The translations under genes were made by a program, and so were the position numbers. The notes under the pieces were generated by a model. That model was not told the origin of the DNA and ran no database searches. It saw only the letters and a program-made list of their open reading frames with translations. 64,000 bases of DNA from Lotus japonicus (taxonomy: Eukaryota; Streptophyta; Magnoliopsida; Fabales; Fabaceae): positions 101,208,981-101,272,980 of the forward strand of contig NC_080041.1 of assembly GCF_012489685.1 (NCBI RefSeq), given 5' to 3'. Shown piece after piece: positions 32,151-55,600 of this stretch. The number at the start of each line of letters is the position of its first letter. Positions within the stretch are counted from its first letter, which is position 1.

Positions 32151-32537
32151 TGATAATTACTAATAATTTAGACTAATTTACTAAAAATTACTAACATTTA
32201 CCTATAATTTTTTTTTTAAGAAATAGGAAAAAAAAAGAAATATTTGACCACGTGCACAATCCAAAAACAAGATTATTTATGAATATAGTGCAACACATTG
32301 GTTAGATACATCCACAATAAGGGAAACAAATAATTAATAAATTATTTACCAATAAAAAATACATCTCAAAATTATTTCCCTTTCAATTCTATTTGATTGG
32401 GTGATCCTCCTCCAATCTTCTTCATCCATGGAGGTAGGAGGAGGAGAGACTGCACCCAGACAAACAAACCCAACAAATTCCTAGTCATTTCACTTTCTTC
32501 CATTTTTCACCTCAATTTCTTCTTCTTCTTCTTCATC

Positions 32538-35500
32538 ATGGGATTGAGTGGTGTTGCTTCACCTTCTTCCTCATCATCATCTTATTGCTCCCGTTTCTGG
32601 TCATCAGCGCTCCGATCCAAACCCCTCGTATCGCCGGCGGAGAAGGCCGCTCGCGACAGCTCCGGCAGGGGTCTCTCCCGCCGCCTCGGTGTCTTCGACC
32701 TCCTTCTCCTCGGGATCGGCGCCTCCATTGGCGCTGGCATATTTGTCGTCACCGGCACTGTAGCTCGCGACGCCGGTCCCGGTACGCCTCGCATTCAATT
32801 GAAATGGGTTGTTCAAATTTTCTGTTAAGAGGAGTGCTTTTAGATTGTCCTGCATCAGACATGACTGTTTTAGTTTGTATTAGTCATTGCATACCCACAA
32901 CATACTAGTACCATTTATTTTGATGGCAAATGAGCAACAAGCTTGTTGATAAACATGTGAAATGCAACTCTTAATTTGCAACTTTGAGAGGTTTATTTAT
33001 TTTGATAGGGATAATGGGGTGGTTGTTAATGATAAATGCTGATTTGTTTCCTTTGTTGTGCTTTAGTTTATGGAATGAAAAGGAGCTGGTCGAAATTTCG
33101 ATTCAGAGTTCTGTAATTTTATAGGGCGATATTGGAGGGCATGAACAGTTCATTTTCTTCGTTCTCTAATCTTTGCTAAACACGATTGCAGTAAAAGTGA
33201 ATACTGAATTTGTCTTAATTCCTCTTCACTTGCTCTCCTTATCTTATTTATTTTCATATCCACAATGGGTTAGTGTCTGTTTCTGCGGATATGTATGTCT
33301 ATGATAACATGGATTTTCTATGTTAGACTTAGACTTCTTCTCCATGAAAACTTTTATCCATCTCAAATGACTGCATCTTCTTCAGAAGGGAGTACGACAG
33401 GGTATAAAATACTCTTTAATCACATCTTGAGCAGTTTCAAAATTTGGTGGTTTCTTCAGTTTGCTTACATTTTAACTTCCCTCCTCTATACTGAGCTCAA
33501 TTGTAATGCTAATTGATGTGCTGAGACAGGATTATTCGTACTTCTTATGTTGAAACAAAAACCTTCAATATGTGTCTATTTATCAATATAGCTGCTTTAA
33601 AATATTGGTCAGGACAAGACATGTAATGGTTATTTTTCTGTTACAACTCCAAACTTAGTGCTTATACATGGTTACTTTTTGCAATGCAGGAGTAACAGTT
33701 AGTTTTATACTTGCGGGAGCATCCTGTGTTATAAATGCACTCTGTTATGCTGAGCTAGCTTCTCGGTTTCCTGCCGTTGTTGGAGGGGCATATCTATATG
33801 CATATACTGCTTTCAATGAACTTACAGCTTTTCTTGTTTTTGCACAATTAATGCTTGACTATCATATTGGAGCAGCTAGCATAGCAAGAAGCTTAGCAAA
33901 TTATTTGGTAACAATTCTAGAGCTCTTCCCCATTTTCAAAGATAACATTCCGAAATGGATTGGACATGGTCAAGACATTGGAGGTGTGCTATCCATCAAT
34001 GTCTTAGCTCCAATTCTCCTACTTCTTCTCACTTTTGTTCTCTGTCGGGGTGTTCAAGAATCATCAGTTGTGAATTCGTTTATGACAGTGACCAAGGTTA
34101 CTTTCTATCTTACCAATATATTATTAAGCATTGGATGAAAGCTGGGGTTTACGTGAGACCAGAATCACAAGTTATTTTACTGTTTGTTGTAGGTGGTCAT
34201 CGTTATTATTGTCATTTTTGCTGGAGCTTTTGAGGTTGATGTTTCCAACTGGTCTCCCTTTGCTCCAAATGGTATGAAAAGCATATTTACTGGAGCTACT
34301 GTAGTCTTCTTTGCATATGTTGGATTTGATGCAGTTGCAAATTCTGCTGAAGAATCTAAGAGGCCACAGGTATGTTATGTATTGTGAGATTGCTCTGATA
34401 GTTGATGGATTTTCCTGATGGCTTATATGTTATTTAATGTTTCTGTTGGGAACAATAATGATGCTAGAAGTAAATGGTGACTATTTAGAGTTTTATGTCT
34501 GCTGCTAGATGCCGTAGTCTATTGGTCACACTTTGCCTTCAATAATCTTACAAGTAAATAGTAACTATTCGGATTTAGTTTTCCCCTTACCGGGATACTG
34601 TAGTTATTAATTAACTTCAGGTCATTTTGTAAATGTACTTGTACATCAGAATAGCAGTTTAGCAGAAGCTATCTGGCAATGATATTTTTATTTGCTGTGT
34701 CTAGTAAACTCATGGTTTCCATTCTAACGTTTTCTCCTCTTTTTGTTGTTATGAGTTAGTTGATGATATTTTTCTTTTAATGTTTCTAATTTCTAACATT
34801 TCAGCGTGATTTGCCGATAGGCATAATCGGAAGCCTCTTGGTGTGTATTGCTTTGTACATTGGAGTGTGCTTAGTGATTACTGGAATGGTTCCATACAAT
34901 CTCCTAGGAGAAGATGCTCCGTTGGCTGAAGCTTTTAAATCTAAGGGGTTAAAATTTGTTTCTATTCTGATTAGCATTGGTGCTGTTGCTGGACTTACGA
35001 CAACACTCCTTGTTGGTCTCTATGTTCAGGTGAATCACTTGTGAATTAAGATGTAATTGATTGATGTGCCTTGTGTGTGCTAATAATGTACACAATGACA
35101 TGTTTCTGATGAGCAGTCTCGGCTATATCTTGGGCTTGGTAGGGATGGTTTACTACCCGCAATATTTGCTAAAGTTCACCCCAAACGCCACACCCCCATT
35201 CATTCTCAGGTTTGGGTTGGCTGTGTGGCCAGTGTTTTGGCTGGACTGTTGAATGTGCACATGCTCTCACACATTCTGTCTGTTGGTACACTGGTAAGAT
35301 TCGATATCTAATTTCTTGATGCTGAGTTTGTCAACAAAACATATGTATCTATATAATCTTGAATTATATGTGTGTACGCGACATAGAAAACGTGATGCCT
35401 GTCTAGCTCAGTGGGCATGCCTCTTTATATTGGCTACATTAATATAATATTACTATGCTGTTGGATCAAGATCCTCTCAGGCAAAACTTCACATGGCACA

Positions 35501-37282
35501 GTCATGCTGTAATTTTATGCCTATCTTTCTTTTCATATGTATTAAATAGTTGGGACCCTTTGAATAATTTATGAAGAAAGAGATAGGCACAAAGTTTCAC
35601 ATGACACGGTTATGTGACATGAGAGGATGCCAATCCCTGTGTTTTTTAACATATGTTCAGACAATGCATCATATTTTCCATTTAGGGAATAATACAACAT
35701 GCTGTGCCTTGACATTTCACAAAGTATACTTCACAGGTGTTATTGATTAGTGTTTGTAAATATTTTTAGTTAATGCCCCTCACTTAATATTTGCACTTAT
35801 TTTAGACTGGCTATTCAGTTGTCTCGGCATGTGTTGTTGTACTTCGCTGGAAGGATAAAACAACTGGTCAAGTATCACCTTCAGCCAAGAGGGAAGGTGT
35901 AATTTGCCTCATTGCTGTTGCAGTTTCTGGATTTATTGGGGGGGTCTCTTTCCGCTATGATGCCTCACCTATTTTACTGATTCTGGCTATACTTGTTGGA
36001 GCTGGTGCTTCTGCTGCTCTTCATTTCCGCCAGGTGAGTGTTCTTTTGTATTTTATTAACTGTTTGTTGCATGGACTTCTTCAAAATGGTTTGGTTAAAA
36101 AATAATTAATTTGATGTAACATGGTGGCATAGAAAACAAATAAAAAACACTAAGGGATATTCAGTTATAAGTTAATTTTGCTTAAGTACAGGAGGGAAAG
36201 TAAAAACCTTCTTTGATTGAATAACTAATCAAAGGTAAAATTAATATTGATTTGATTCGATTTAATATGCAACTTCAGCATGCATATCACAACATGGCAA
36301 AGACACGTGGCTTGTTGAGAGGGGGAATACGACATGATTTCATGAGAAGAAGATCAAGTACTGAGGTTGTCTCATACACTCCACAATGGTGACTCAAATT
36401 TATTATAAATAGGGGTGGATAACAAGCACAATATGGGTTGAAAACCAATCTCAATGCCAACATGGGGTGTAACCAGGTTTGGGCCAACTCGCGAACCTGA
36501 TCAACCGACTTGATCCATGTAAAAATATTGCTCGTTTCGGTAGGGCAGGAAGGAAAAGAATCTTGATCCAACTGTAGTCAGGTTTTGGGTCAAGAAAATT
36601 GAGTTGAGACCTCGATCAATCCGACCCGACTCAATATTGCATTATTTTATATATCTTTTTAAAAAAATTCATTTTATATATTCGAAAATCAAAATTGATC
36701 TTTAATTGTTTTGCATATATTTCTCTCAAATCTGACCTGACCTGATTACACCTCTATGGCCAACCAACAGTTTTGCTAAGCTTTCCGGACCTCATAACTT
36801 GAAATTTTGTAAAATTCATGTATGTTGCATAGATCTTATTTCCTCTCATTAATTCCTTTCTGTTATATCATTTGGATTTCTAGGATTATGCAGCAGATTC
36901 ACCAGGGTTTTCTTGCCCTGGGGTTCCCATTGTGCCAAATGTTTGCATCTTTTTCAACATGTTCTTATTTGCCCAGGTATGCCCATGCTACTTTTGACAA
37001 ATTAGCCAGAATAGTACTATATCTTTTTTTTTTGGTTACAGGAGGAAGAGTGAATAGTACTATATCTGAAAAGACTAAAGTTAATAATTTTAATATTTAT
37101 TCATCAAAACTGACATGATGATGAACTTCTGTTGACAGTTACATCATGAAGCATGGGTGAGATTTGTGATTCTTAGTGTTGTCATGGTTGGTCTTTATGC
37201 AATATATGGGCAGTATCATGCTGACCCCAGTGCAGAGGAGAATACTGTTTATCATGAGGCACCAGAGGAAGATGGTCGATGA
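32538..37282 (+). CDS. CAT9: CAT9-type amino acid transporter, copy 1, 8 exons
   Basis: Exons 32538-32781, 33690-34096, 34193-34369, 34805-35029, 35117-35293, 35806-36033, 36884-36976, 37139-37282; 564 aa, against about 569 for Arabidopsis CAT9. APC-superfamily cationic amino acid transporter, with about 14 predicted membrane spans. Seen: TM1 motif GIGASIGAGIFVVTGTVARD, SRFPAVVGGAYLYAYTAFNE, FVGFDAVANSAEESKRPQRD-type loop, SRLYLGLGRDGLLP, and C-terminal YGQYHADPSAEEN. Closer to CAT9 than to CAT1-8 by the N-terminus (SALRSKPLVSPAEKA). Tomato CAT9 is known as a tonoplast Glu/Asp/GABA exchanger, so a vacuolar role is likely but inferred. The leader is homologous to copy 3. Distinct in this copy: GGVSFRYD where copies 2 and 3 have GGLFFRYD. 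Confidence 0.95.
35469..35630. mobile_element. Inverted-repeat MITE in CAT9 intron 5, copy 1
   Basis: GATCCTCTCAGGCAAAACTT on the left faces CATGAGAGGATGC on the right, with further inverted pairing (CACATGGCACAGTCATG, TGCCTATCTTTCTT). Orthologous inserts exist in copies 2 and 3, so it predates the triplication. Confidence 0.6.
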
Positions 37283-38012
37283 GTTATCAGTTCAATATTA
37301 AACATTACGGTTTACATTATGGCCAATGGGGAGAAGGGTGTGTTGGTTAAAATGTATGTAGCAAATATAAGGTGAATGTGAATGGGGTGAAGATGGTCGA
37401 TTTGTTAGGAATGTGAATGTCCATCAGGTGTAGTTAGATTGTATACGGCACACTCAGCAAGTATAATACGTTCCATTTGGGGTTTAAATTCCTGTTGCGG
37501 TTGTATCGTGGATAAATGTGGCTACAATTGCAGTAGAGATACCATTGCAGGGACTCAAAAACCCTAGTACATTGTGGTCGCAATTGTGGGGGTTGTAAAC
37601 TTAAATTTGAAGCCTTGCTTCCCCTCAAAGGGCTCCTCCTCCTTTGATCCCCAACATATGTATGATGTATCTCTTGTAGTTTACAACTTAATTCGAAAAG
37701 AAAATAATCATGTACCATTTTCTTATGTGAATATTCAGTTGATATTTTTTGACTTGTTCAAGCCCAACATTTGTCTGCATTTTTCTTTAATAAAAAAGAA
37801 GCTCTATTAAAACTTTATCTATAATACTTTACTTTAATATCAAGGATTAAATCATGCTTATAAGAAATATTTTTTTTGAAATTCATAGAAATATAGTTTA
37901 AATGCATTTTTTTTTAAATTAAGAGTCTCCCTACTAGTGTCATGGAAGCCTGATCTTATTTGAATAATAAAAATTCAAACAATATTTTCGCTAGTATGTC
38001 ATTCAAATGTGG
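37283..38012. other. 3' flank of CAT9 copy 1
   Basis: Non-coding. About 37490-37770 (GTTGTATCGTGG ... GTATGATGTATCTCTTGTAG) is homologous to the flank of copy 3 (58450-58740) but is missing behind copy 2. Probably the 3' UTR and downstream region. Confidence 0.6.
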
Positions 38013-38290
38013 TCCTAAGTTGTACATATAATGATAGAAAAGAAAAATTAAACAAATGCCATCATGTACATCACAATATTACATTGCTAAGTTGTATATG
38101 ATAACAAAGAAAAATGAAACTAAGGCCACCATGTGGTGCACAACACAATTTCATATTGCTAAGTTGTATATGATAAAAAGAAAAATGAAACTAAGGCCAC
38201 CATGTGGTGCACAACACAATTTTATATTGCTAAATTGTATATGGTAGAAAAGAAAAATGAAACTAAGGTCATGATGTGGTGCACAACAAA
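38013..38290 (+). repeat. 71-bp minisatellite, array 1 (about 4 units)
   Basis: Unit of about 71 bp with core ATTGCTAAGTTGTATATGAT, AAATGAAACTAAGGCCACCA and TGTGGTGCACAACACAATTT. The first unit is degenerate. Units of the same family follow copies 2 and 3 of the transporter. Short open frames across the array are artefacts. Confidence 0.9.
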
Positions 38291-39081
38291 ATTTGACCTA
38301 AAAAACTAGTATTTATTTTATTAGATATTCATATAATTTCATGTAAAGTTATCATCATATTCTAATGTAGATATTTGCAAATGCAATTTATATATTAATA
38401 CAAGTTTACATAGTCCAAAATGGTCTCCATATAATAGCTCAAGTTGGTGGATTACTCTCCTGAGAGAGATCCCCCGACGCTTCTACCAAAGAGTAGGCCT
38501 CTGCTTGCCTCTCCAACATACCACCAACGCCCTATTTAGTAGTCTAGAAGTATTTTCTCTTCGTTCAACCATTATTGATAACAAAAGAAAAAAAGTGCAG
38601 AACACTAAGACATTGTATATATATTTGTAATTATATTGAAACCTTAGGAATAAAGTGGGTGGAAACAATTGTTTTGTTTTATAGTGATGGTTTTTAATCA
38701 TACAATTATAATAAGTTAAAATATTTTTGGCCTATCTATATATTGTGTTTTGTTCTTTTGCTTTTAGTAATTATTTTTTCTAAAATGTCACATTTTAATT
38801 TTTAATCCTTGCTCGGGTAAGAGAAAATATGACAATGAAAAGAGTTTTGATTCATTCAATTTTTATTTTTCTTCCATTTTATTTTCTTTCTCTTTCTCTT
38901 CTTATTCCTCTATGTTTTTCCCTATCACATCACATATAAAATCTTACAAATTTCTCTCAAATTTTTGGTTTTTCCAAAATCTAACTCACTCATGTTAGTG
39001 TTTGTTAGGTGTATTTGTGATGTTATGAACTTGTCCCACTTTTCCATCCACATTTTGTTAAGGAAAAAACAAAATTCACTT
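38291..39081. other. Spacer between CAT9 copy 1 and MULE
   Basis: Non-coding and homologous in part to 51840-52220 upstream of copy 3 (TATATTGAAACCTTAG, AAAATATTTTTGGCC, AATTCACTTT). It is therefore the original promoter-side flank of copy 2, now separated from it by the MULE. Confidence 0.65.
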
Positions 39082-39090
39082 TAGAAATAA
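39082..39090. repeat. Left 9-bp target duplication of MULE
   Basis: TAGAAATAA, identical to 45357-45365. Confidence 0.97.
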
Positions 39091-39328
39091 GGGAAAACTA
39101 TGGAAATGGTCCCTGATGTTTGAGCGAGCGCTGGTTTTGGTCCCTTCCCGGAGTAACTTCCGAAAATGGTCCCTCCGGTGGCCAAAACCACCGCGCCTGA
39201 GTTTTGCACCGGCCACCATGCACACATGGCCACGCCACGTCAATTAATGAGATGACGTGACATTTTTTTTTGTTTTAAAATAAAAAAACTAAAAAACCTT
39301 AAATTAACTAAATTTAAACCTAATCTAA
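39091..39328 (+). repeat. MULE left terminal inverted repeat (238 bp)
   Basis: Begins GGGAAAACTATGG, is GC-rich up to about 39240 and AT-rich after. Alignment with the right repeat ends after TTAAACCTAATCTAA. It probably contains the transposase promoter, by analogy with MuDR. Confidence 0.95.
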
Positions 39329-39727
39329 ACAAAATCCTAATCCTAATAATCCATCCCTTATCTATTCTGACCCACCCATTATCCATCCCTTGTCCCTTAC
39401 CTTCTTTGAACGAACTGCGACTGAGCTTTGGTTGTGACGGTGGCTGCAACTGAGTTTTGGTTGTGACGGTGGCTGCGACTGGTGCATGTGAGAGAACGAC
39501 GAGACTGTTGCGCCTAAAAGGTTGGTCCCTTTCTTCCTTTGTTTTCGAAACCACCGCGCCTAATGAGTGGATTCCATTTCGAAAATACTCCCTTTCTATT
39601 TTGGGTTTTCATCTCAAAATGTTGATTCACTGCTTAGGGTTCTTCACTTTAGGGTTTTTCAATGATTCAACATCAGTGGTAGTAAAGACATAATTTATTG
39701 GAATTTTTGCTTATGTTGTTGTAGGAT

Positions 39728-42700
39728 ATGGCATTCACAGTTGTTGTGCACCATTCTGGGTTGTTTTCTTCGGACCCACACCCTCATTACAGAGAGGGAC
39801 GAGTGACAACCGTTACTGATGTTGATCTGGACAAGTGGGGTTACCTTGAATGTATTGATATTGTTGAGAATATGGGGTATAGAGAAGGCAAGTTCAAGCT
39901 ATGGTGGAGGACACAAGATGATGCCATTGCTCGCAAATTTCGCCCTTTGTTGACCGATAATGATGCTATGGTGCTGGGCACATATGCAGTTGACAATAGA
40001 GGGTTAGCCCACATGTTTGTGGAGCATGATGATGATGAGCTGACTATTACTCCATATGCCACCCAACCAACCAAGAACCCTGAAAAACCCTGTAAGCCTC
40101 CATCTCAGAAGCCTCCATCTCAGAAGCGTCCATCTCAAAAGGTAGGTCCATTTTCTCTTCCACCAAAGAAGGATGGTCCACGTATGCTGTTACCAAAGCA
40201 GGATGGTCCACGTATGATGTTACCAAAGAAGGATGGTCCACGTATGATGTTACCAAAGAATTTTGTTCCACCAAAGAAGGCTACTCCAGCCAAGAGACCT
40301 GCTACACAGCCTCTTAGAAGGTCAAATAGAGTGCAATGGCTTGGGAGAGAAAAAAAGAAAAATAGCCAGCCTGCATTTGTGGTGTTGTCTAGTGATGAAG
40401 AAGACATTGGTGCTGAAAGTGAAGTGGTTCCTAATGGTCAAGGTGGACTAGGAAGCCAAATGGGTGGTCAGAGTCAAGTTATTAATGAGGCTATAAGGGT
40501 GCAGCAGCTTGGTGAAGAATTGGGGCAACCTAATGTTGCAGGTTTGACTCTCTTTTCTTTTCAATTGTCAATTTCCTACTTCCCTTAATTATATGTCATA
40601 CAATTCCCTTCCCTAAATTATGTGTCATTATTTGAAGTGCAAGTTGATGATCAAGTCCCTGAGAACATGCTTAGTGGTGACATGCTATGTGGTGATAAAT
40701 TTGAAGTTGTTAATGAAGCTGTGGGGGTGCAGCAGCAAGAAAGTAATGTTGCAGGTGTGATATTTACTTCCTTTGAATTGTGAATTTAAATTGGGGCTGG
40801 ATTGTGAATTGTGAATTTCAATATCTAACTGAGAGTTTTTATTTTAAGTGCAAGGTGATGATCAAGTACCTGATAACATCCCACATGTTGAGCAAGGTGG
40901 ACAAGAAGAAGAGGACATTGATTTTGGTTATGAGTCTGAGACTGATGGGGAGGATTCTGTGCAGGATATTCACTTTAGTGATTATGAGGAAGAGAGGGCA
41001 GTAGACAAGGATGATGGCTTTCAGAATAACAATATTGGCATTGCTGAGTCTTTGTTGAATGAACAGCTGAGGAAGATGCAGGGAGGGACATATGAAATTG
41101 CTGGGAGTGGGCCTAGTGTGATCCTTGGTGATGCTGATGGTGGAACTGGTTTACACAGTGACCATGAAATGGAGAATGCCTATGATTATGAGGACCTTGG
41201 TAGTGTGTCTGGCAGTGATGATGATGATATGCTACATGAGAACAGAAATTTCACACAGTTTCACGAGGAAGACATGAGGGAGGATTTCAAGTTCCAGCTT
41301 GGGATGGAATTCAGATCATTGAAACAATTTAAAGATGCTGTCAGGGACCATACTGTGCTGAATGGTAGGCAGATAAGGACTGTGAAGAATGATGACATTA
41401 GGTACAGGATCAAGTGTAGGAGAGAAGATTGTGCTTGCGTCATGCTTTGTAGTAAAGTTGGTGGAAAGGCAACTTTTAGTATCAAAACAATGATAGGACC
41501 ACATACCTGTCCTAGAGTGTTCAATTACAAGTCTGCATCAAGTAAGTGGGTTGCTAAGAAGTTGACTGAGAAGGTAAGGAATTCAAGGAAGCTCAGGCTG
41601 ACTGATGTGCAAGATGAGGTCAAGGTGGCATTTTGTGCTGGAATCACAAGATGGAGAGCCTGGAAGGGAAGACAGATGGCCATGGAGATTGTAGAGGGAG
41701 ATGCTAGTAGACAGTATCATCTTCTATATCGCTTTAGTGCAGAGCTTATTAGTAAGTCCAGAGGAAACACATGTAAGATTGGCATTGAAAGGTTTCCTGG
41801 AGCCTTACATCCTAGGTTTCAGAGATTTTACATGTGTTTGGAGGGTTGCAAGAAGGGGTTTGTTGAAGGGTGCAGGCCATTTATAGGGTTGGATGGTTGC
41901 CATTTGAAGACACAGTTTGGGGGAATCTTACTGTGTGCTGTGGCCAGGGACCCCAATGATCAGTATTTCCCCTTGGCTTTTGCAGTTGTTGAATCAGAAT
42001 GCAAGGAGAGCTGGAGATGGTTCCTTGAAATTTTATTAGATGACATTGGGGCAGATATGAGGTGGATATTCATTTCTGATCAACAGAAGGTAAAATGTCA
42101 ATTTCACTAACTGTCCATTTCACTAATTTCCTTGTTGAACCAATTTATGAAGTGTCCTAAATTTTGCAGGGTTTGCTAACTGTTTTTGATGACCTCATGG
42201 GAGGAGTAGAACACAGATTCTGTCTTAGGCATCTGTATGCCAACTTTAAAAAGAAGATTGGAGGAGGGGTAGTCATAAGGAACCTCATGATGGCTGCTGC
42301 AAAGGCAACCTATCACCAGCTATGGACTGAAAAGATGATGGAGTTGCAGGCATTGCATCCAGAAGCATACACTTGGCTGATGCAGATTCCTACAAGGGCT
42401 TGGTGCAAGCATGCATTCACATTTTATCCAAAATGTGATGTGTTGATGAATAATCTGTCGGAGTCATTTAATGCTACCATATTGTTGGCCAGGGATAAGC
42501 CAGTTCTGACAATGGTGGATTGGATCAGAAGTTACATTATGGGGAGGTTTGCTACAATGAATGAAAAGTTGGAGAAGTATAAGGGGGAAGTCATGCCAAA
42601 GCCATTGAAAAGATTGGAGCATGAGATTGAAATGGTGAGATACTGGGTTGCTACACGTTGTGGTGAAGACAAGTATGAGGTCAAGCACATGGTCAGCCAA

Positions 42701-43784
42701 GACCAGTTTGTTGTTAATCTGGCTGAGCACACTTGCAGTTGTAACTTCTGGGAATTGGTGGGGATCCCCTGTAGGCACGCAGTTGCTGCCATTTCACACA
42801 GTTCACAAAGGCCAGAAGACTTTGTCCATCCATACTACAGGAGGGAAGCCTATATGGCAACTTATGGCCATGTCATCACACCCATTAATGGTCAAAAACT
42901 TTGGCCAACAACCAATGATCCTTACATCCTGCCTCCTTTGTACAAGAGAGCCCCAGGGAGACCTAAGAAGCTAAGGAGGAGAGATCCACATGAAGACACA
43001 ACTGACAATCAGACAAGGTTACGCAGAGGTGTGGCCAGGAATAAATGCAGTAGGTGTGGGCAGTTTGGGCATAATTCAAGAAGCTGCAGGAATCCAGTGG
43101 TCTCCCCAGATTCCCATGTCCCTGAAAGTAGCAATCAGGCTGCTGCTAGACCTAGAAGACAATCTGCCGACAGGGTAAAATTACTAACTCTCCTTCTATC
43201 TTTTTTACATACAATCATGAAAGGATAAACTAATTCAATCAGCTTTGTGTTTTACCTGCATACAGGTCAATGCTAACAGTGAAAACACTGTTGTTGAGGG
43301 AGATGCAAGTGGTAGTCAAGTGCTTGATCCTACTCAGATAAATTCCAATGTAAGTAACCTGCACAGATCTATCCATTATCATTGAAGTTCCATTTTTTAT
43401 TGTACAATTAATTGAGTTGTAGCCTTGTGTGCAGGTGAGAAAGAATAAAAGGGGAGCTTCTAAGAAAAATACCCCTGCCCCTGCTGAAGAACAATCTCAG
43501 ATTGTATAAATCTTGCCCATATCTAAATAATTCTACTCAGATCTATAATGTTTGTTGGGATACATACCTCTCTTCTGAGCTTCTGCATCCTTAAATTTTC
43601 ATTTTCTTTTATGCAGCTTAGTGTCACAGAACAAGCTTCTGAGCCAGCCTGGGTGGAGGGCCTTGCTGCAAACAATCTTGGAAGTCAAGTCCATGTTGAA
43701 CGTGTCACACAAGCTGCTGCTGAAGGTTCTGGTCAGAGAGGAAAAAAACACCTCAAGAAAGGAAAAAGAGTTGCTGATAGTTAG
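39728..43784 (+). CDS. MULE transposase, 7 exons, intact
   Basis: Exons 39728-40541, 40638-40754, 40849-42089, 42170-43174, 43266-43349, 43435-43503, 43617-43784 join in phase with no internal stop; 1165 aa. Seen: N-terminal region like the PB1-like domain of plant MULE proteins (1-105); a Lys/Pro-rich stretch with repeats of KDGPRM; acidic region; Mutator DNA-binding domain at about 455-550 (FRSLKQFKDAVRDH, Cys/His residues); MULE catalytic domain with likely DDE residues in FIGLDGCHLK (near 655), ISDQQKGL (near 720) and LSESFN (near 820); SWIM zinc finger CSCNFWELVGIPCRHA (near 915); CCHC knuckle CSRCGQFGHNSRSC (near 1020); basic C-terminus. It should cut and paste its own element. A 5' intron probably precedes the start (acceptor just before 39726). 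The last two or three exon borders are the least certain. Confidence 0.93.
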
Positions 43785-44304
43785 AGAGAAGGAGTAGATC
43801 TAGAGTCTTTAAATGGTTGTAATAGTTTAATCCTGCACATGGGGTGCATTTTTTGATATACTTTATGTATTGTGGACCACTTAGGCCATGACCATTTCCC
43901 TTTCTTTAATGCTTGTTGTTGTTGTTTGATAGTGGCTGGACCACAAACAAGGATCATTGAGATTGTCATTTCCATGGATTATTCATGTGCTTTTGTTGAC
44001 AATATTAACCAAGTGGACCATTTCCCTTCACTTCTGAATTTTGCCAGTACATGAATAGTTGAGATTCTCAATTTTGTTATATGTCTATTCTATTTTGTCA
44101 GTGCAAGAATCTTTCACTTTTGTGCTGTCTTTTACTAGAACCAAAAGCAAAGCAAGAAAAAAAGGAGATATGTGAGATAATTGTAAACAAAAGTCTCATA
44201 CATTAATGAAAACAGAGATACATTTAGGTTGTATCCAACAACCAACTTCAATTCCTTTCAATTTTTCATCATCCTTCAATATTACATCCCTGACTTTCAA
44301 CTAC

Positions 44305-44861
44305 CTACACAACAACATTAAGTTTTCCTGACATAAACACAAACCAAAACCATGACAGAATAACACAAACAATAGCCATATTCTTCTTCATCATTTCATA
44401 CTCAAGCTTCCTCTGAACCTTATCATTCTTCCTCCTCAAATCCTCTAAGTTCATCTTACACTCCTCCAAGGTCTTCTTGCTCTCTTCCAGTTTATTCTTC
44501 ATCACATCCAATTCACGCAATGTTCTGGTCAGTTCAACTACAGCTCTGGTATTTGCTCCTTCAAACGCATATTCATCATCCCACAAAAAAAACCCACACT
44601 CAGGTGGTGACTGCAAATGAAATCGAGAAAAGTGTCAACAAGGAACAGTACTATGCAAATGTTAAACGATGATTGATTACATACCTTCCAATTACTGCAC
44701 CTCCAAAACTTCCTTCCTGGGTTCGCGTCACTGTGGGAGGTCAAGTAAAGAACCCTTTCTCCACTGTCACAGAATCCACGACGCATAACGGCAGCAACGG
44801 AAGAACGACCACCGGAAGCGGAGGCGGAACCAGAACCAGAAGATGTAGCCTTACCCATCAT
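44305..44861 (-). CDS. MULE second gene: GRF zinc-finger, coiled-coil, membrane-anchored protein
   Basis: Exons 44861-44685 and 44610-44305 join at phase 0 to give 160 aa. Seen: Ser/Gly-rich start; one GRF-type zinc finger at about 29-77 assembled across the intron (FCDSGERVLYLTSHSDANPG, RKFWRCSNWK, then ECGFFLWDDEYA); a charged coiled coil at about 85-135 (LRELDVMKNKLEESKKTLEE); and a hydrophobic C-terminus (MAIVCVILSWFWFVFMSGKL), probably a tail anchor. GRF fingers bind single-stranded nucleic acid in other proteins; the role here is unknown. It runs toward the transposase gene with about 520 bp between their stop codons, the same convergent layout as mudrA/mudrB, though not related in sequence to mudrB as far as I can tell. 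It could be a transposition helper, an anti-silencing factor or captured host cargo. The upstream in-frame Met at 44927 is less likely. Confidence 0.85.
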
Positions 44862-45120
44862 GTCAGATTCGTGGAGGATGAAGATAAAGGGTCGAATGTG
44901 ATGATGATGCACGATTAGCACACACAATGATAAATGTGATGATGAAGATGCTGGGATGATGAAGAGAGAAGCTCGAATTTGGGGAGAGAAGCTCGAATTT
45001 GGGGAAGAAGCTCGGATTTGGGGAAAACTCAGAACCCTAAGACATGAATTGAGGATTTGGGAATTCAGATGTTAAGTAGCATGAATTTAGGGTTACATTT
45101 GGTGTACTTGGATTAGGATA

Positions 45121-45356
45121 TTAGATTAGGTTTAAATTTAGTTAATTTAAGGTTTTTTAGTTTTTTTATTTTAAAACAAAAAAATGTCACGTCATCTCAT
45201 TAATTGACGTGGCGTGGCCATGTGTGCATGGTGGCCGGTGCAAAACTCAGGCGCGGTGGTTTTGGCCACCTGAGGGACCATTTCCGGAAGTTACTCCGGG
45301 AAGGGACCAAAACCAGCGCTCGCTCAAACATCAGGGACCATTTCCATAGTTTTCCC
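45121..45356 (-). repeat. MULE right terminal inverted repeat (236 bp)
   Basis: Reverse complement of 39091-39328 with 2 substitutions and a 2-base length change in a T run. Its outer end lies 116 bp before the CAT9 copy 2 start codon. Confidence 0.95.
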
Positions 45357-45365
45357 TAGAAATAA
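45357..45365. repeat. Right 9-bp target duplication of MULE
   Basis: TAGAAATAA, identical to 39082-39090. Confidence 0.97.
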
Positions 45366-45472
45366 AGGTGTGTCAAGTGATGTAGATTTTTGGTGGCAGT
45401 CAGAAGTGTCACCTTCTTCATGACTTCATATCAACCACCATCACCATGTAACCAGAACCATTTCCTTCCATC
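45366..45472 (+). promoter_or_regulatory. Shortened leader of CAT9 copy 2
   Basis: The block TTTTTGGTGGCAGTCAGAAG (45388-45407) and the CACCATCACCATG stretch match the copy 3 upstream region (52252-52530). Relative to copies 1 and 3, about 90 bases directly before the start codon are missing (the part holding ATTTGAT ... CTAGTCATT). Everything further upstream is now MULE. Confidence 0.75.
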
Positions 45473-48400
45473 ATGGGACTGGGTGGTGCTACTCATTCTT
45501 CCTCTTCTTCATCTTATTGCTCCCGTTTTTGGTCGTCGGCGCTCCGCTCCAAGCTCCTCGTCTCGCCGGCGGAGAAGGCTGCTCGTGACAGCTCCGGCAG
45601 GGGACTCTCCCGCCGGCTTGGTGTCCTCGACCTCCTGCTCCTTGGAATCGGCGCTTCCATTGGTGCCGGCATCTTCGTCCTCACCGGAACCGTTGCCCGC
45701 GACACCGGACCCGGTACGCCTCAAATTTAATTGAAACGCATTGTTCAAAATTTTGTCAAGTTTTGTTGTTGTTGCTATCATCATTGGTTTGCTTTAGCAA
45801 GATGAGTACTTTTAGATTGTCCTGCATCAGACATGGCTGTTTCAAAATGTGTGTATTAGTTACTTATTCCTCCCTTCCTTATTAACGGTCTACTTAGTCG
45901 AAAAACAAAATTGTTCTTATATATCTGTTCACTTATAATTTCAAGAGAGCATTCAATGATATGTTTCCAAGTAATGCCCTTGTGAGTTGTGAGAATAATA
46001 AATGAGAAAAAATAAAATACATTCAAAAGGGTAAAATAGGAAATCAAATAATACATTTATGAAAATCAACAAAATTAATGTGTTTCTTCTCTCACTATTA
46101 TGGTATCCTACATTCCTACCCATGTTGGTGAAATTCTATAAATTAAAGTAGAAAAGTTGGACTGAGCTAAGAGTATCTGATGGTGCCTGAGCCTGAGAAC
46201 TGTCCTGTGTTTGAAAGCAGTACTGCAACTATTATAAATTATTATGTTTCATGCTTGACAATCAACATGTGAGATGTAACTCTTAATTTGCAACTTTGAG
46301 AGGTTTATTTATTCTTGATAATGATCAAAATGGGAAGGTTGTACATGATAAATGAAAATCATTGAATGCTTGCTTGTTAAGGCTCATTCATGATTCATGC
46401 CTTGTAGCTGGGATAGCCGGATTGTTGACTTTATTGTGTTTGCTAGGCAGTAGTTTATGTAACGAATAAGGGATAGCTAAAATTTCGATTCAGTCTTTTG
46501 TAATTTTATAATGCAATCTGGAGGGCACAAATAGAACAAGTTTTCTCATTCCATTTTCCACATTCTCTAATCTTTGCTAGGCATCATGAGGGGAAATTGT
46601 ATACTGTCTGTATAGATCTTTCTTCCTCTTCGGTTTTCACTTTCTCCCTTCATCTTATTGATTTTCATACCCACTATGGGTTAGTACCCGTGTTTCTACG
46701 GATATGTATGTGTATGACAACAACATAGATTTTCTATGCTAGACTTCTTCTCCATGAAACTTGTATCCATCTTAATGCTAATTGATGTGCTGAGACAGAA
46801 TTATTCTGATTTCTTATGTTGAATAATCGACCTTCATTATGTATTTATTTATATAAATAGCTGCTTTAAAATATTGGTCAGGACATGTAATGGTTACTTT
46901 GCTTTACCTTTCCAAACTTACTGGCTTAGTCGTGGTTTCTTTCTGTAATGCAGGAGTAACAATAAGTTTTGTACTTGCGGGAACATCCTGTGTTATAAAT
47001 GCACTCTGTTTTGCTGAGCTAGCTTCTCGATTTCCTGCTGTTGCTGGAGGGGCATATCTATATGCATATACTGCTTTTAATGAACTTACAGCTTTTCTTG
47101 TTTTTGCACAATTAATACTCGACTATCATATTGGAGCAGCTACTGCAGCAAGAAGCTGTGCAAATTATTTGGTAACAATTCTAGAGCTCTTCCCCGTTCT
47201 CAAAGATAACATTCCAAAATGGATTGGACATGGTCAAAACATTGGAAACGTGCTATCCATCAATGTCTTAGCTCCAATTCTTGTACTGCTTCTCACTTTT
47301 ATTCTCTGTCGGGGTGTTCAAGAATCATCAGTTGTGAATTCGTTTATGACAGTGACCAAGGTTCCTTTCCATCTTACCAGTTACCACTTCCAGAATATAA
47401 CATTAAACATTGGATGAAAGCTGGGGCTTATGTGAGAACAGAATCACAAGTTATTTTACTGTTTGTTGCAGGTGGTCATCGTTATTATTGTCATTTTTGC
47501 TGGAGCTTTTGAGGTTGATGTTTCGAACTGGTCTCCCTTTGCTCCAAATGGTATGAAAAGCATATTTACAGGAGCTACTGTAGTCTTCTTTGCATATGTT
47601 GGATATGATGCAGTTGCCAATGCTGCTGAAGAATCTAAGAGACCACAGGTATATTATGTTTCGTGAGATTGCTCTGCTAGTTTATGAATTTCCCTGATGC
47701 CTTATATGCTATTTAATGTTTCTGTAGAGAACAATAATGATGTTAGAAAAAAAATTGTGACTACTTGGAGATGGTACATGGGTGTTTAGCTATGTTGGAT
47801 CATTAATTCTTAGTTCCTTCATGAATATCTTGGGTGAAGGGTGATTGTTTCTTTTGGGAATGAGAATAATTTGAAGATGGCAAATCATTGTTTTACTATG
47901 CCGTTCACAATATGAAAAGCATATTTTCAGATCTACTTGTACATCAGCATAACAGTTTAACAGAAACTATCTGGCAATGGTATATTTATTTTGTGTCTAG
48001 TTTAAACTCACGCTTTCCATTCTAACTTTTTCTCCTCTTTTGTTGTCATGAATTAGTTGATGATGTTTTTTTAGGGTGTTTTTCTGAGTTTTTAAGGGAG
48101 GGGATGGGAGCGTAAGGGAGGGCGAAGGAGGGCAAGCCCTTCCCTTGTTTGGGAGTTCAAATACCCCAATTTGGAGGAAATAGAAAATATAACTGTTGGG
48201 GAGAGTCACGGCGAGGGCCCATGGGGCAAGGTCGAGGGGAAACACCAAGGAGATCTTGGACACCACATCTATGAAGACTTTCGACACAAGGAGTCGTCAT
48301 GGTCCCACGAACCATCGGCTCTGATACCAGTTGTTGGGGAGAGTCACGGCGAGGGCCCATGGGGCAAGGTCGAGGGGAAACACCAAGGAGATCTTGGACA

Positions 48401-51040
48401 CCACATCTTAACCCAAAACCTTAAGGCATTAGGTTTATGGGTCACATCTCTTATAAACTCTCCCTCTCACCTTGACTTCTCCGATGTGGGACTTGACTCC
48501 AACACTTGATTCCAACAATAACTAAGAGGGTCTTGGAGGGTATTCAAAAATTCCCCAACCCTTCCCTTTCTTCTTATAAACTAACAAATAAGGGGAGGGC
48601 TTCTTAGAAGCCTCACCCTTCCCTTCTTCCCCCCCCCCCCTCTCTAAAACTCAACTCGCAAACCCACCCTTAATCTTTCTAATTTCTAACATTTCAGCGC
48701 GATTTGCCGATAGGCATAATCGGAAGCCTCTTGGTATGTCTTGCGTTGTACATTGGTGTATGCTTAGTGATTACAGGAATGGTTCCATACAATCTCCTAG
48801 GAGAAGATGCTCCATTGGCTGAAGCTTTTGAATCTACAGGGTTAAAATTTGTTTCGGTTCTGATTAGCATTTGTGCTATTGCTGGACTTACGACAACACT
48901 CCTTGTTGGTCTCTATGTTCAGGTGAATCACTTGTGAATTATAAATTAATTGTTGTGCCTTGTGGCATGTGCTAATGTACATGATGTTTCTGTTGAGCAG
49001 TCTCGGCTATATCTTGGGCTTGGCAGGGATGGTTTACTACCCGCAATATTTGCTAAAGTTCACTCCAAACGCCACACTCCCATTCATTCTCAGATTTGGG
49101 TTGGCTGTGTTGTCAGTGTTTTGGCTGGACTGTTGAATATGCACATGCTCTCACACATTCTTTCTGTTGGTACACTTGTAAGATTCAATTTCTAATTTTA
49201 TGGCACTGAGGTTGTCAACAAAATATATATATCCATATTATCTTGTATGATGTAGTGTGTTTGTGACATAGAAAAGACGGTGAATGTCTTGCTCAGTGAA
49301 CTTGCCCTCTTTTGTTGGATGATGATCCTCTCATATGAAACTTCACATGACACTCATCTTGTAATTCTATATCTATCTTTCTCTTTATATGTATTAAATA
49401 TGTCAGACCCTCTGAATAATTATGAAGAAAGAGATAGACACAATTTTACATGACATTGTTATTTTACATGAGAGGATCCCAATCCCAGTGTTGTTTAACA
49501 TATGTTCAGAAAACGTGCAGCATATTTTCCATTTAGGGAATAATACAACTTGCTGTACCTCGACATTGACAAGAGTGTACTTCATAGGTGTAATTGAATA
49601 GTGTTTGTAAATATTTAGTTAATGCCCCACTCATGGTATTTGCACTTATTTTAGACTGGCTATTCAGTTGTTTCGGCATGTGTTGTTGTACTTCGCTGGA
49701 AGGATAAGACAACTGGTCAAGTATCATCTTCAGCAAAGAGGGAAGGTGTAATTTGCCTTATTGCTGTTGCTGTTTCTGGATTTATTGGGGGGCTCTTTTT
49801 CCGCTATGATGCTTCACCTATTTTGTTGATTCTGGCTATACTTATTGGAGCTGGTGCTTCTGCTGCTCTTCATTTCCGCCAGGTGAGTGTGCTTTTGTAT
49901 TTTATTAACTGTTTGTTGCCTGGACTTCTTCAAAATGGTTTGGTTAAAAACTAATTAATTTGATATAACATGGCATACAAAACAAATCGAAAGCACTAAA
50001 GGATATTCAGTTATAATTTAATTTTGCTTTAGTACAGGAGGGAAATTAAAAACCATCTTTGATTGAATAACTAATCAAAGGTAAAATTAATATTGATTTA
50101 ATTCAGTTTCAAAAAAAAATATTGATTTGGTTCGATGTAATTTGCAACTTTTGCATGCTTAAAGGACTCTTGGCTTGTTGGGGAGGGGAATACGAAATGA
50201 TTTCATGAGAAGAAGATCAAGTACTGAGGTTGTCTCATACATTCTGCAATGGTGACTCAAATTTATTATATATAGGGGTGGATAACAAGCTAAATATGGG
50301 TTGAAACTTGAAAACCAATATCAAGGCCAACATGGTGTGTAAGCAGGTTTGGGCCAACTCGCGGATCCGATCAAGCCGACTTGATCCAAGTAAAATTATA
50401 GCTCGGCTTTGGTAGGATAGGAAGGAAAAGAATCTTGATCCAAGTGAGGTCAGGTTTTGGGTCAGGAAAATTGAGTTGAGGCCTCGATCAATCTGGGCCG
50501 ACTCGATATATCATTATTTTATATATCTCTTTCAAAAAAATCATTGTATATAATCTAAAACAAAAATTGATCTTTAATTGGTTTGGATCTACTTTCTCTC
50601 AAATCTGACCTGACCTGATTAAACCTCTATGTTATTTTCTCTCATTAATTCCTTTCTGTTCTATCATTTTGCTTTCCAGGTTTATGCAGCAGATTCACCA
50701 GGGTTTTCTTGCCCTGGGGTTCCCCTTGTGCCAAATGTTTGCATCTTTTTCAACATGTTCTTATTTGCCCAGGTATGCCCATGATCTCTACTATTTGAAA
50801 GTTTAGCCAGAATTAATACTGTCTTAGAAAACGTTAAAGTTAATAGTTTTAATATTTCTACATAAAAACTGACAAATGATGATGAACTTCTGTTGACAGT
50901 TACATCATGAAGCATGGCTGAGATTTGTGATTATTAGTGTTGTTATGGTTGGTTTTTATGCAATATATGGGCAGTATCATGCTGACCCCAGTGCAGAGGA
51001 GAATGCTGTTTATCATGAGGCACCAGAGGAAGAAACTTGA
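45473..51040 (+). CDS. CAT9: CAT9-type amino acid transporter, copy 2, 8 exons
   Basis: Exons 45473-45713, 46954-47360, 47472-47648, 48698-48922, 49001-49177, 49655-49882, 50680-50772, 50900-51040; 562 aa, all borders GT-AG and in phase. Same fold and motifs as copy 1 (GIGASIGAGIFVLTGTVARD, SRLYLGLGRDGLLPAIF, YGQYHADPSAEEN). Differences include HIGAATAARSCANYL in span 4, ESTGLKFVSVLISICAIAG in exon 4, and C-terminal EEET. Intron 3 is enlarged by a MITE with a miniature LTR element inside it. Its promoter is displaced by the MULE 116 bp upstream, so expression may be reduced, lost or driven from the element. The coding frame is still intact, which suggests that the change is recent or that the gene is still used. 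Confidence 0.94.
48074..48669. mobile_element. MITE in CAT9 copy 2 intron 3, split by a nested LTR element
   Basis: Left end GGGTGTTTTTCTGAG, right end in reverse GGGTGGGTTTGCGAG, flanked by TTA at 48071-48073 and 48670-48672. Removing the nested insert gives 267 bp, matching the 266-bp element in copy 3. Copy 1 has the empty site (TTTTAATGTTTCT near 34775). A TTA target suggests PIF/Harbinger ancestry. Confidence 0.8.
48194..48517 (-). mobile_element. Miniature LTR retroelement (TRIM-like), deleted, nested in the MITE
   Basis: 324 bp with TG...CA ends (TGTTGGGGAGAG ... TCCAACA) and a 5-bp target duplication ATAAC (48189-48193, 48518-48522). On the minus strand: a 186-bp LTR (48517-48332, TGTTGGAATCAAG ... 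CCCCAACA), two bases, then TGGTATCAGAGCC (48329-48317), the primer site complementary to initiator tRNA-Met. A 46-bp spacer follows, then only the last 77 bp of the second LTR (48270-48194), identical to 48408-48332. No coding capacity. Absent from the equivalent MITE in copy 3. Confidence 0.88.
49324..49478. mobile_element. Inverted-repeat MITE in CAT9 intron 5, copy 2
   Basis: GATCCTCTCATATGAAACTT faces CATGAGAGGATC. Same insertion as 35469-35630. Confidence 0.6.
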
Positions 51041-51225
51041 TGAGTTATCAGGTCAATATTAAACAATGTGGTTTTCATTGGCCAATGGGGAGAAGGGGGT
51101 GTTGGTTAAAATGTATGTAGCAAATAAGCTATTTGTTCTTTCTGTTAGGAGTGTGAATGTCCATCAGGTATAGTCAGATTGTATATGGCACTGCCAGCAA
51201 GCATAATACATTAATACCCATTAGG

Positions 51226-51543
51226 GATTTATATTGCTAAATTGCATATGATAAAGAAAAAAGAAAAAAGAAACTAAGGCAACCATGTGGTGCACAACAC
51301 AATTTTATATTGCTAAATTGTATATGGTAGAAAAGAAAAAAGAAACTAAGGTCACCATTTGGTGCACAACACAATTTTATGTTGGTAAATTGTATATGAT
51401 AAAAAAGAAAAATGGAACTAAGGCCATCATGTGGTGCACAACACAATTTTATATTGCTAAGTTGTATATATGTTAGAAAAGAAAAATGAAACTAAGGCCT
51501 GTATGTGATGCACAACACAATTTTATATTGCTAAATTTGTATA
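51226..51543 (+). repeat. 71-bp minisatellite, array 2 (about 4.5 units)
   Basis: Same family as 38013-38290: ATTGCTAAATTGTATATGGT, GAAACTAAGGTCACCA, GGTGCACAACACAATTTTAT. It begins closer to the gene than array 1 because the roughly 300 bp of 3' flank seen behind copies 1 and 3 is missing here. Confidence 0.9.
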
Positions 51544-52636
51544 CAATCCCTGACCAGAAGTCCATCCATGCTCGAGTTATTTCTAATATAGAGAAGAACT
51601 TGTAAGGTGTAGATGACAGCTGAAGACTCCTCTTCTAAAAATTTAAGTGGTATGAAAAGTTAGCAATCATCATATATAACTTAGCAAAAAATTTAACATA
51701 AATTTTAACATAGGTTTGGAAAGACTATTACTAAACTTCTTATAAAATATGAATTTCTCTTTATATTTTTGTTGAAATCAGATTTTTACTGTGAGCATCA
51801 GCAATGCAGAACACAAAAACATAGATTGTGCAAACTTTTTATTTGTAATTATATTGAAACCTTAGAAATTAAATGGGCAGAAATCAGTTGTTTAGTTTTA
51901 TAGTCCTGGATTTTAATCAAAGAATCATAATAAGTTAAAATATTTTTGGCCCATCTAAATATTGTGTGTGTGTGTGTGTGTTTTTTTTTGGTGAAAGTCA
52001 CTTTCTCTTCTTATTTCTCTATTTTCTCCCTATCACATTACATATAAAATCTTTCATTACTCTCAAATTTCTTTGGTGGAGGCAGATTTGTATTGTGAAC
52101 ATAAGTTTTTCCAAAATCTAACTCACTGATGCTTTGTGTATTTGTGATGTCATACTTTTCCATGTACATTTTATTAATGGGCCAAATTTGTTGTTTCAGA
52201 AAAAAAGAAAAATTCACTTTTATTAGTCTGTGTTACCCACCACAAAAAGAGGTTTTTGGTGGCAGTCAGAAGTGCCACCTTCTTCTAGTAGTTAACCTCT
52301 TACTAATGTGAGTACCAGCATGGTCAGAGACAGTGAGACACCTTCATCTCAAAGCATTTCAGAGAAATCCATTACTATATATTTTCCAAACCATGTGTAT
52401 CCAACAACCTTACCACAAAAAAGTCAATAACTACCATGAAGGTATCAATATTCTCAATCATTGACCCCACATTATAATTTACACTTACCTCCTTCATGAC
52501 TTTATATATCAACCACCATCACCATGTTATTTGATAGAGTGATTCTTTTTCTCCAATCTTCATCTATGGAGGTAACAATGACTTCACCCATATCAAAACC
52601 ACTAAATTCCTAGTCATTCAACTTTCCTACATTATT
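51544..52636. promoter_or_regulatory. Spacer and promoter region of CAT9 copy 3
   Basis: Non-coding. Contains a (GT)n run at 51962-51981. 52252-52636 is the likely promoter and leader, homologous to the leader of copy 1 (CTAAATTCCTAGTCATT before the start) and, in part, to the shortened leader of copy 2. Confidence 0.6.
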
Positions 52637-55600
52637 ATGGGATTGGCTGGTGCTGCTTCTCCTTCTTCTCCATCCTCATTATCATCATCTTATTGCTCCC
52701 GTTTTTGGTCCTCGGCACTCCGGTCCAAGCTCCTCGTGTCGCCGGCGGAGAAGGCCGCTCGTGACAGCTCCAGCAGCGGACTCTCCCGCCGCCTCGGTGT
52801 CCTCGACCTCCTGCTGCTTGGTATTGGTGCTTCCATTGGTGCCGGCATCTTCGTCATCACCGGAACCGTTGCTCGCGACGCCGGACCCGGTATGCCTCCA
52901 ATTTAATTGAAATGGGCTGTTCAAATTTTCTGTCTAGTTTTGTTTTTGTTACTATTTTCATCATGATCATCATTCTTCATGATCATTATAAATTTTGTGA
53001 TTTTGCTAAGAAAAAAAGGCACAAATTATTGAAATATAGTAGAGATTAAACATTGGAAGTAAAAGAAAGAAGTATCTATGGCATTTCTGGCAATGGGAAT
53101 CATTGAATGCTTGCTTGGTAAGGCTCATTCATGCCATGTAGCTTGATTGTTGACTTTGTTGTGTTTGCTATGTAGTAGTTTATCCATGAAATGTCTGGCA
53201 AGGGTACAGCTACTATTTCAAAGTTTCCAAGTGTGTATTAGTTTTTGAACACATGTTAAATACTATAAGTTATCTAATTATTATGTATTCTCCTACCCAT
53301 GTTGGTGAAAATTCTATAAATTAAAGTAGAAAGTTGGAGGGTGTAGGCTAAGAGTATATGTTGGTGGTGCCTGAAGACTGTCCTGTGTTTGATAGCAGCA
53401 CTGCAACTATTTGAATTTTTCATGCTTGATAATTAACATGTGAGATGTAACTCTTAGTTTGCAACTTTGAGAGGTTTAGTCATTCTTGATAATGATAAAA
53501 ATGGGAAGGTTGTCAATGAGAAATGAAAGCCACTGAATGCTGCTTGCTTGTCAAGGCTCATTCATGATTCATGCCTTGTAGCTGGGGTAGCTGGATTGTT
53601 GACTTTATTGTGTTTGTTAGGCAGTAGTTTATGTAACGAATGTGGGATAGCTAAAATTTCGATTCAGTCTTTTGTAATTTTATAATGCAATCTGGAGGGT
53701 ACAAATAGAACAAGTTTTCTCATTCCATTTTCCAAATTCTCTAATCTTTGCTAGGCATCATTAGGTAAAAGTGTATACATCTTTCTTCCTCTTCGGTTTT
53801 CGCTTTCTCCCTTCATGTTATTTATTTTCATACCCACAATGGGTTAGTATCCGTGTTTCTACGGATATGTATGTGTCTTTGACAACAACATAGATTTTCT
53901 ATGTTAGACTTCTTCTTCATGAAACTTGTATCCATCACAAATGGCTACTTTGCACCTCTTCAGAAGGGAGTACGACAGGGTATAAATTACTGTTTAGTTA
54001 CATCTTGAGTAGTTACAAAATTTGATGGTTTCTTCAGCTTGCTTACATTTGCACTTCAGTCTTCTCTATTGTAATGCTACTCGATGTGCTGAGACAGAAC
54101 TATTCTTATTTCTTATTTTGAAAAATTGACCTTCATTCTGTATCTATTTATCTTTATAACTGCTTTAAAATATCGGTCAGGACTTGTAATGGTTACTTTG
54201 CTTTTACCATTCCAAACTTAGTGGCTTATTCATGGTTTCTTTCTGTAATGCAGGAGTAACAATAAGTTTTATACTTGCGGGGGCATCCTGTGTTATAAAT
54301 GCACTCTGTTTTGCTGAGCTAGCTTCTCGATTTCCTGCTGTTGTTGGAGGGGCATATCTATATGCATATACTGCTTTTAATGAACTTACAGCTTTTCTTG
54401 TTTTTGCACAATTAATGTTTGACCATCATATTGGAGCAGCTATAATAGCAAGAAGTTGTGCAAATTATTTGGTAGAATTTCTAGAGCTCTTCTCTTTTTT
54501 CAAAGATAACATTCCGAAATGGATTGGACATGGTGAAAGCATTGGAAACGTGCTATCCATCAATGTCTTAGCTCCAATTCTCCTACTGCTTCTCACTTTT
54601 ATTCTCTGTCGAGGTGTTCAAGAATCATCAGTTGTGAATTCGTTTATGACAGTGACCAAGGTTCCTTTCCATCTTATCCGTTATGACTTACCAGAATATA
54701 ACATTAAGCATTGGATGAGAGCTGGGGTTTATGTGAGAACAGAATCACAAGTTATTTTACTGTTTGTTGCAGGTAGTCATTGTTATTATTGTCATTTTTG
54801 CTGGAGCTTTTGAGGTTGATGTTTCCAACTGGTCTCCCTTTGCTCCAAATGGTGTAAAAAGCATATTTACAGGAGCTACTGTAGTCTTCTTTGCATGTAT
54901 TGGATATGATGCAGTTGCCAATTGTGCTGAAGAATCTAAGAGGCCACAGGTATATTATGTTTTGAGAGATTTCTCTGCTAGTTAATGAACTTTCCTGATG
55001 CCTTATGTGTTATTTAATGTTTATGTTGAGAACAATAATGATGTTAGAAACAAACTAGTGACTACTAGGAGTTTTATGACTGCTGCTAGGTGCCATAGTT
55101 TATTGTATACACCTTGCCTTCAATTATCTTAGAAGTAAATAGTAACTATTCAGATTTAGTTGTAGTTACTAGTTACCACTTACCATCATAGTTATAAATT
55201 AACTTCAGCTCATTTTGTAAATGTACTTGTACACGCGCATAGCAGTTTAACAGAAACTATCTGGCAATGGTATATTTATTTTGTGTCTAATTTAAAGTCA
55301 CGCTTTCCATTCTAACTTTTTCTCTTCTTTTTGTTGTCATGAATTAGTTGATGATGTTTTTCTTTTTGGGTGTGTTTCTGAATTTTTAAGGGAGGGGAGC
55401 GTAAGGGAGGGGGAAGGAGGGCAAGCCCTTCCTTGTTTGGAAGTTCAAATCCCCCAATTTGGGGGGAAATAGAAAATATAACTAAAAGAGGGTCTTGGTG
55501 GGATCTTGGAGGGTATTCGAAAATTCCCCAAACCCTTCCCCCTATTCGAAAAACTCACGGACAAGGGGAGGGCTTCTTGGAAGCCTTGCCCTTCCCTCCC

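Follow-up and report, generated by a model that had tools for sequence, protein, structure and literature searches.

Mutator-like elements (MULEs) have been known since MuDR to carry second genes. In MuDR two genes stand in opposite orientation, and a crucial part in insertion is ascribed to MURB (PMC9168764, PMC6446971). Further MULE genes named by Dupeyron et al. 2019 are mudrB, mutB, vanB and vanC (PMC6446971). Type II elements of the Abermu MULEs carry, besides the transposase, a reverse gene, ORFR, between the transposase and the 3' terminal inverted repeat (TIR) (Gao et al. 2022, PMC9168764). According to the same authors, ORFR evolves faster (Ka/Ks 0.39-0.56) and is described as being of unknown function, its nature and origin being posed as questions. 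Abermu elements have GGG...CCC ends and 9-bp target-site duplications (TSDs) in A/T-rich sites; 17 plants have elements without ORFR, the barley type has a third open reading frame, and a rice element without ORFR still looks active (PMC9168764). Here we describe a MULE from Lotus japonicus, lying in a stretch of 64,000 nucleotides of contig NC_080041.1 (referred to as the window), which possesses, in addition to its transposase gene, a convergent gene coding for a GRF zinc finger.

The GRF gene is not cargo but has been passed down jointly with the transposase across a large MULE clade, as is evident from its association with the transposase, from co-divergence of the two genes and from selection. 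A preliminary description of the locus, made from the letters alone, had proposed a dedicated partner of the transposase; within the Lotus japonicus genome this reading is now strongly supported. We consider it probable that the element is a two-gene MULE with the GRF gene as a resident accessory gene, whose product would be a nucleic-acid-binding helper with a tail anchor.

Association was examined in the Lotus japonicus assembly containing the window (553.7 Mb). With transposase exon 4 as query, the best 120 of 779 candidates were scored, their identity ranging from 48 to 100% (the listing has 121 rows, two rows of one gene at C3:68.09 Mb being counted once). In the first GRF search, the best 150 of 391 candidates were scored, giving 172 matches; the list used for the first crossing with the transposases contains 98 GRF places, approximately one per gene, among the matches listed. 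The final association rests on GRF places from three GRF queries together with reading of fetched DNA, within 8 kb. A GRF gene was found at most 8 kb from 109 of the 120 transposase exon 4 matches, and in all 109 cases it lies downstream and is convergent. This outcome agrees with the dedicated-partner reading, for which the preliminary description had asked whether other copies contain the GRF gene.

Among transposases at least 60% identical to the query, 36 of 40 have the GRF neighbour (35 of 40 in the first crossing alone; for that crossing as a whole, 0.34 pairs are expected by chance). Below 60% identity, the first crossing found it beside 1 of 80, as if GRF genes stood only beside close relatives. 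This view was abandoned: with two more GRF lineages as queries and with fetched DNA the count rose to 73 of 80, so that the first result reflects a limit of the query. A GRF neighbour is present for 84 of the 86 open exons and for 25 of the 34 exons with stops. Nine of the 11 transposases devoid of a GRF gene contain stops in the exon; another, L070, breaks off at the GRF gene, and for the last the nearest GRF in the list lies at a distance of 13.6 kb. Two candidates for GRF-free elements were rejected: the likeness of L070, an open transposase, to its sister copies ends just before the GRF gene, and a stop-containing GRF was found 5.1 kb away from the transposase of L074. All eight systematically fetched distant loci have the GRF gene (16 were picked at even steps and the first eight fetched; L060 and L070-L074 were chosen by hand).

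Comparison of element groups revealed purifying selection on the GRF gene, as expected of a dedicated partner. The ratio of nonsynonymous to synonymous substitution rates (dN/dS) is 0.23-0.57 in every one of the 17 pairs for which dS is finite; a further two are saturated. Copies with stops in the GRF frame (L041, L044, L063, L064, L067 and L073) were excluded from this calculation, and in L037 the GRF frame is without an ATG where its start is expected. When four pairs are pooled, dN/dS is 0.41 in the N-terminus, 0.08 in the GRF domain, 0.50 in the stalk and 0.46 in the tail, each below 1 (Fisher p 2e-4, 9e-26, 9e-5 and 0.004, respectively). For transposase exon 4, dN/dS lies at 0.08-0.23 when groups are compared and at 0.22-0.42 for four close pairs, two pairs being saturated. 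GRF and transposase identities are correlated (Mantel r 0.80, p 0.0002, 11 lineages). Of the three pairs that are well supported in the transposase protein tree, two are found again in the GRF tree, likewise with good support, and well supported forks nowhere conflict between the trees. For correlation and trees alike, the GRF of L040 was paired with the transposase of L044, another copy in the same group.

The GRF gene of the window, according to predicted splicing, runs on the minus strand through two exons (44861-44685 and 44610-44305) and encodes 160 amino acids:

44685..44861, minus strand: exon 1, coding for a Ser-rich start and the first part of the GRF finger, with Ser33 in place of Cys
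44305..44610, minus strand: exon 2, coding for the end of the finger, a helical stalk and a hydrophobic C-terminus

Its product matches Zn_ribbon_GRF (PF06839) with E 2.5e-9 and 37.5 bits (cut-off 25.9), and 24 of 25 relatives match the same profile at E 0.001. Of the four zinc-binding Cys/His residues, the second Cys is replaced in the window copy by Ser33; Cys at this position is invariant in 25 of 25 relatives and present in all seven sister copies with intact GRF. Ten aligned GRF lineages have in common a Ser-rich start, the GRF finger, a charged stretch and a hydrophobic end, and all lineages that were spliced share one position of a phase-0 intron within the finger.

The hydrophobic end is well preserved. 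All 22 intact Lotus GRF frames have a single hydrophobic stretch at the extreme C-terminus (best 17-residue mean hydropathy at least 1.99), with 0-14 residues following the 17-residue window, and such an end occurs in 23 of 28 database relatives. Tails of the ten lineages are 12-75% identical to the tail of L017 and nonetheless keep their hydropathy. When tails drift in simulation to 70, 50, 35 and 20% identity, 44, 28, 16 and 7% of them, respectively, retain it, and, the lineages being related, the simulation yields no joint probability. Similar proteins of other plants came up in a profile search, namely in Orobanche gracilis, Sesbania bispinosa, Salvia miltiorrhiza and Asimina triloba, the first three with a hydrophobic C-terminal stretch and the last without it. 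The AlphaFold model of the GRF protein consists of the finger and one helix spanning residues 77-159, with predicted local distance difference test scores (pLDDT) of about 96-98 along most of the helix; over the whole protein the mean pLDDT is 82 and the predicted template modelling score 0.45. Sequence and model together show the plan of a tail-anchored protein, whose finger would lie on the cytosol or nucleoplasm side. The membrane tethering suggested in the preliminary description would be in agreement with both. In the PDB, the GRF profile matches NEIL3, ZCCHC4 and the GRF of an AP-lyase, the two best matches being NEIL3, a DNA glycosylase. The GRF of APE2 binds single-stranded DNA (PMC6122073). 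In the literature searched, which left most subscription papers outside, no study of GRF genes in MULEs came to light, the one hit dealing with NLR proteins, and nothing relevant on the plant GRF zinc finger and single-stranded DNA or on At4g04775; for MULEs of Lotus, the hit concerned a transposon-derived gene family.

The element itself spans 39091-45356 (6266 bp) and is bounded by TIRs and a TSD:

39082..39090, no strand: left 9-bp TSD, TAGAAATAA, exact
39091..39328, plus strand: left TIR, from end comparison, with 41 matches in the genome
39728..43784, plus strand: transposase gene, 1165 amino acids, seven exons (39728-40541, 40638-40754, 40849-42089, 42170-43174, 43266-43349, 43435-43503, 43617-43784), from inferred GT/AG splice sites and Pfam
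43504..43616, plus strand: intron holding the place of a missing stretch of about 190 bp (near 43527), from comparison with eight sister copies
45121..45356, minus strand: right TIR, from end comparison
45357..45365, no strand: right 9-bp TSD, TAGAAATAA, exact copy

The TIRs are about 237 bp long and differ by two substitutions and one 2-bp indel. Such long TIRs together with a TSD within the 8-11 bp range are characteristic of the MULE superfamily, and a script found exact 9-bp TSDs in 11 of 16 further elements tested. Exons were picked by a script at GT/AG sites, the splice sites being predicted from sequence. The seven joined exons are free of stops, and their product exceeds the Pfam cut-offs for MULE (PF10551, E 1.3e-13), DBD_Tnp_Mut (PF03108) and SWIM (PF04434). 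The MULE transposase domain has the DDE residues typical of the superfamily, which are kept in aligned relatives (D659 in 55 of 57, D721 in 54 of 58, E822 in 54 of 56). Among the six longest copies in which exons 1, 3 and 4 were read, the window copy alone has no stop, L009, L010, L011, L014 and L017 having at least one stop each in these exons. Exon 1 contains 15-bp and 30-bp coding repeats (40094-40260), and exon 1 of L009, L010, L011 and L017 differs from that of the window copy by indels.

Near 43527, about 190 bp present in all eight sister copies are absent from the window copy. This stretch contains 126 nt bounded by AG and GT, in frame in seven of the eight, which is likely a transposase exon missing from the window copy. 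Near-identical ends, the exact duplication, the seven-exon, stop-free transposase model and a second intact gene on the opposite strand, joining a GRF finger to a hydrophobic end, are confirmed as given in the preliminary description; its label of an apparently complete element is doubtful. Because the window copy is devoid of one zinc-binding Cys as well as of the likely exon, its own GRF protein may be weak.

Searching the genome with the left end gave 41 matches. The 17 at 95% identity or more fall into nine copies, hence this is a repeat family and not a chance similarity. An intact GRF frame is present in eight of the nine copies (the window copy, L009-L013, L016 and L017) and broken in L014. 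Much of the transposase is missing from L012 and L016 and a part from L013, and all three keep the GRF gene. Short elements of 0.9-1.7 kb make up another set (L018-L027, of which L023 may hold two) and are likely non-autonomous; their TIRs are similar to the query at 76-87%, and in most of them the TSD is exact or nearly so.

The MULE is inserted between the first and the second of three tandem blocks resembling amino-acid permease genes, and a related permease block without the MULE is consistent with an empty site:

32534-38748, 45470-51967 and 52634-58829: three tandem amino-acid-permease-like blocks, with a Pfam AA_permease_2 match in the second

The likely start codon of the second block lies about 117 bp beyond the MULE. 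Behind blocks 1 and 2 there are arrays of a 72-bp tandem repeat of one unit type (38031-38294 and 51228-51543). Elsewhere in the window, an open frame of 1081 amino acids, which contains coding repeats of 63 bp and matches DUF761 in its last part, occupies 59946-63191 on the minus strand, and an open frame with an F-box and a weak Armadillo match occupies 17116-18648, also on the minus strand.

Several observations weigh against a resident, tail-anchored, nucleic-acid-binding partner. The GRF gene evolves faster than transposase exon 4; within the window's own family, the pooled ratio of nonsynonymous to synonymous differences (pN/pS) is 0.75; and the three closest GRF pairs elsewhere have dN/dS of 0.35-0.80, which is not significant. 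Some GRF copies have stops or are devoid of the tail, and the Foldseek match between the GRF model and NEIL3 is weak (E 0.34). The reverse count is also weaker: of the 98 GRF places in the first crossing, 36 are near a listed transposase and 62 have none within 8 kb. The single one of these 62 that was opened (L059) has a convergent MULE transposase. In a later crossing of 78 GRF places, 44 were near a listed transposase and 34 were not. GRF genes may therefore exist outside MULEs as well. Two arrays, C2:7800903-7874202 and C6:47780375-47804073, contain many GRF matches about 1.3 kb apart with no listed transposase near; these matches run through the intron place and so look intronless, and they are possibly host genes or satellite-like copies.

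Part of this evidence would suit a passenger, a gene taken from the host that does nothing for the element, given that MULEs capture host genes, that intronless-looking arrays lie away from listed transposases (C2:7.80-7.87 Mb, C6:47.78-47.80 Mb) and that pN/pS is 0.75 inside the window's family. Near-universal convergent association, the shared intron place, co-divergence and selection make such a passenger highly improbable, and the same evidence contradicts, as a recent event, the captured host cargo considered as an alternative in the preliminary description. The gene may possibly have been captured in ancient times and recruited later. Mobile relatives lacking the GRF gene had also been named as a sign of passenger sequence. 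Short relatives with exact TSDs and no GRF gene do exist, but a transposase would not fit into them and proteins supplied in trans could act on them, which makes them uninformative on the question of a partner.

Other functions can be envisaged for a conserved gene. A factor that shields its own family from methylation by the host or from silencing through small RNAs would likewise show conservation and fast evolution and could act in trans, and a MULE accessory gene with such a role is known, VANC of VANDAL (PMC6446971). The finger is of the NEIL3/APE2 type, however, the C-terminus is hydrophobic and no chromatin-linking feature was seen in the GRF protein, which leaves an anti-silencing role quite unlikely. 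We give still less credence to a role in the cytosol, where a protein of the endoplasmic reticulum (ER) membrane would bind RNA or small RNA of the element with its finger and favour translation or stability. Established rules of topology would place the finger of a protein with a C-terminal anchor in the cytosol, and ZCCHC4, a GRF-containing rRNA methyltransferase, is among the profile matches, but the two best matches belong to a DNA glycosylase.

For a resident partner of the transposase, membrane insertion and biochemical role are both presumed in the following scheme, which we put forward tentatively and regard as somewhat doubtful in its entirety. The stalk would oligomerise, the hydrophobic tail would keep the protein in the membrane of the ER or nuclear envelope, and the finger would grip single-stranded DNA at the cut ends of the element or at the gapped insertion site. 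Gripping would raise the yield of reinsertion or repair, a step resembling that of MURB, and the protein may serve elements in trans. A membrane-bound helper would be an unusual accessory factor for a DNA transposon. A broader and rather unlikely proposal is that tail-anchored, nucleic-acid-binding GRF proteins regularly accompany the transposase in a large clade of angiosperm MULEs, tethering transposition intermediates to the nuclear envelope and accounting for reverse reading frames such as ORFR of Abermu. If it were true, many plant genes named 'At4g04775-like' would be transposon genes. These results are in any case a warning that some GRF genes in plant annotations may be parts of transposons. 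Since the second gene of this MULE codes for a recognisable domain, keeps its place and is clearly under selection, its function becomes testable.

Plant 'At4g04775-like' proteins have the same GRF domain, and the database protein P0001, identical to the GRF of L013, is so named; these records denote uncharacterised genes, not transposon genes. The element differs from Pack-MULEs, in which fragments of host genes replace the transposase, in its open transposase frame and in a GRF gene conserved across elements. VANDAL/Hiun of Arabidopsis resembles it in having accessory genes, vanB and vanC, one of them anti-silencing (PMC6446971); VANDAL elements are described as having no TIRs or short degenerate ones, whereas the TIRs of the Lotus element are long. 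The term 'GRF' is absent from the text of Dupeyron et al. 2019 (PMC6446971). Abermu is similar by description in its reverse-gene layout, 9-bp TSD and GGG...CCC ends, and differs in that 'GRF' is absent from the text of PMC9168764. Like MuDR of maize, the Lotus MULE has a convergent second gene; the likeness is one of layout. In the text consulted, mudrB is described as being of unknown function, with no GRF domain mentioned. Judged by its position, which corresponds to that of mudrB in MuDR and ORFR in Abermu, the GRF gene may be the same kind of partner.

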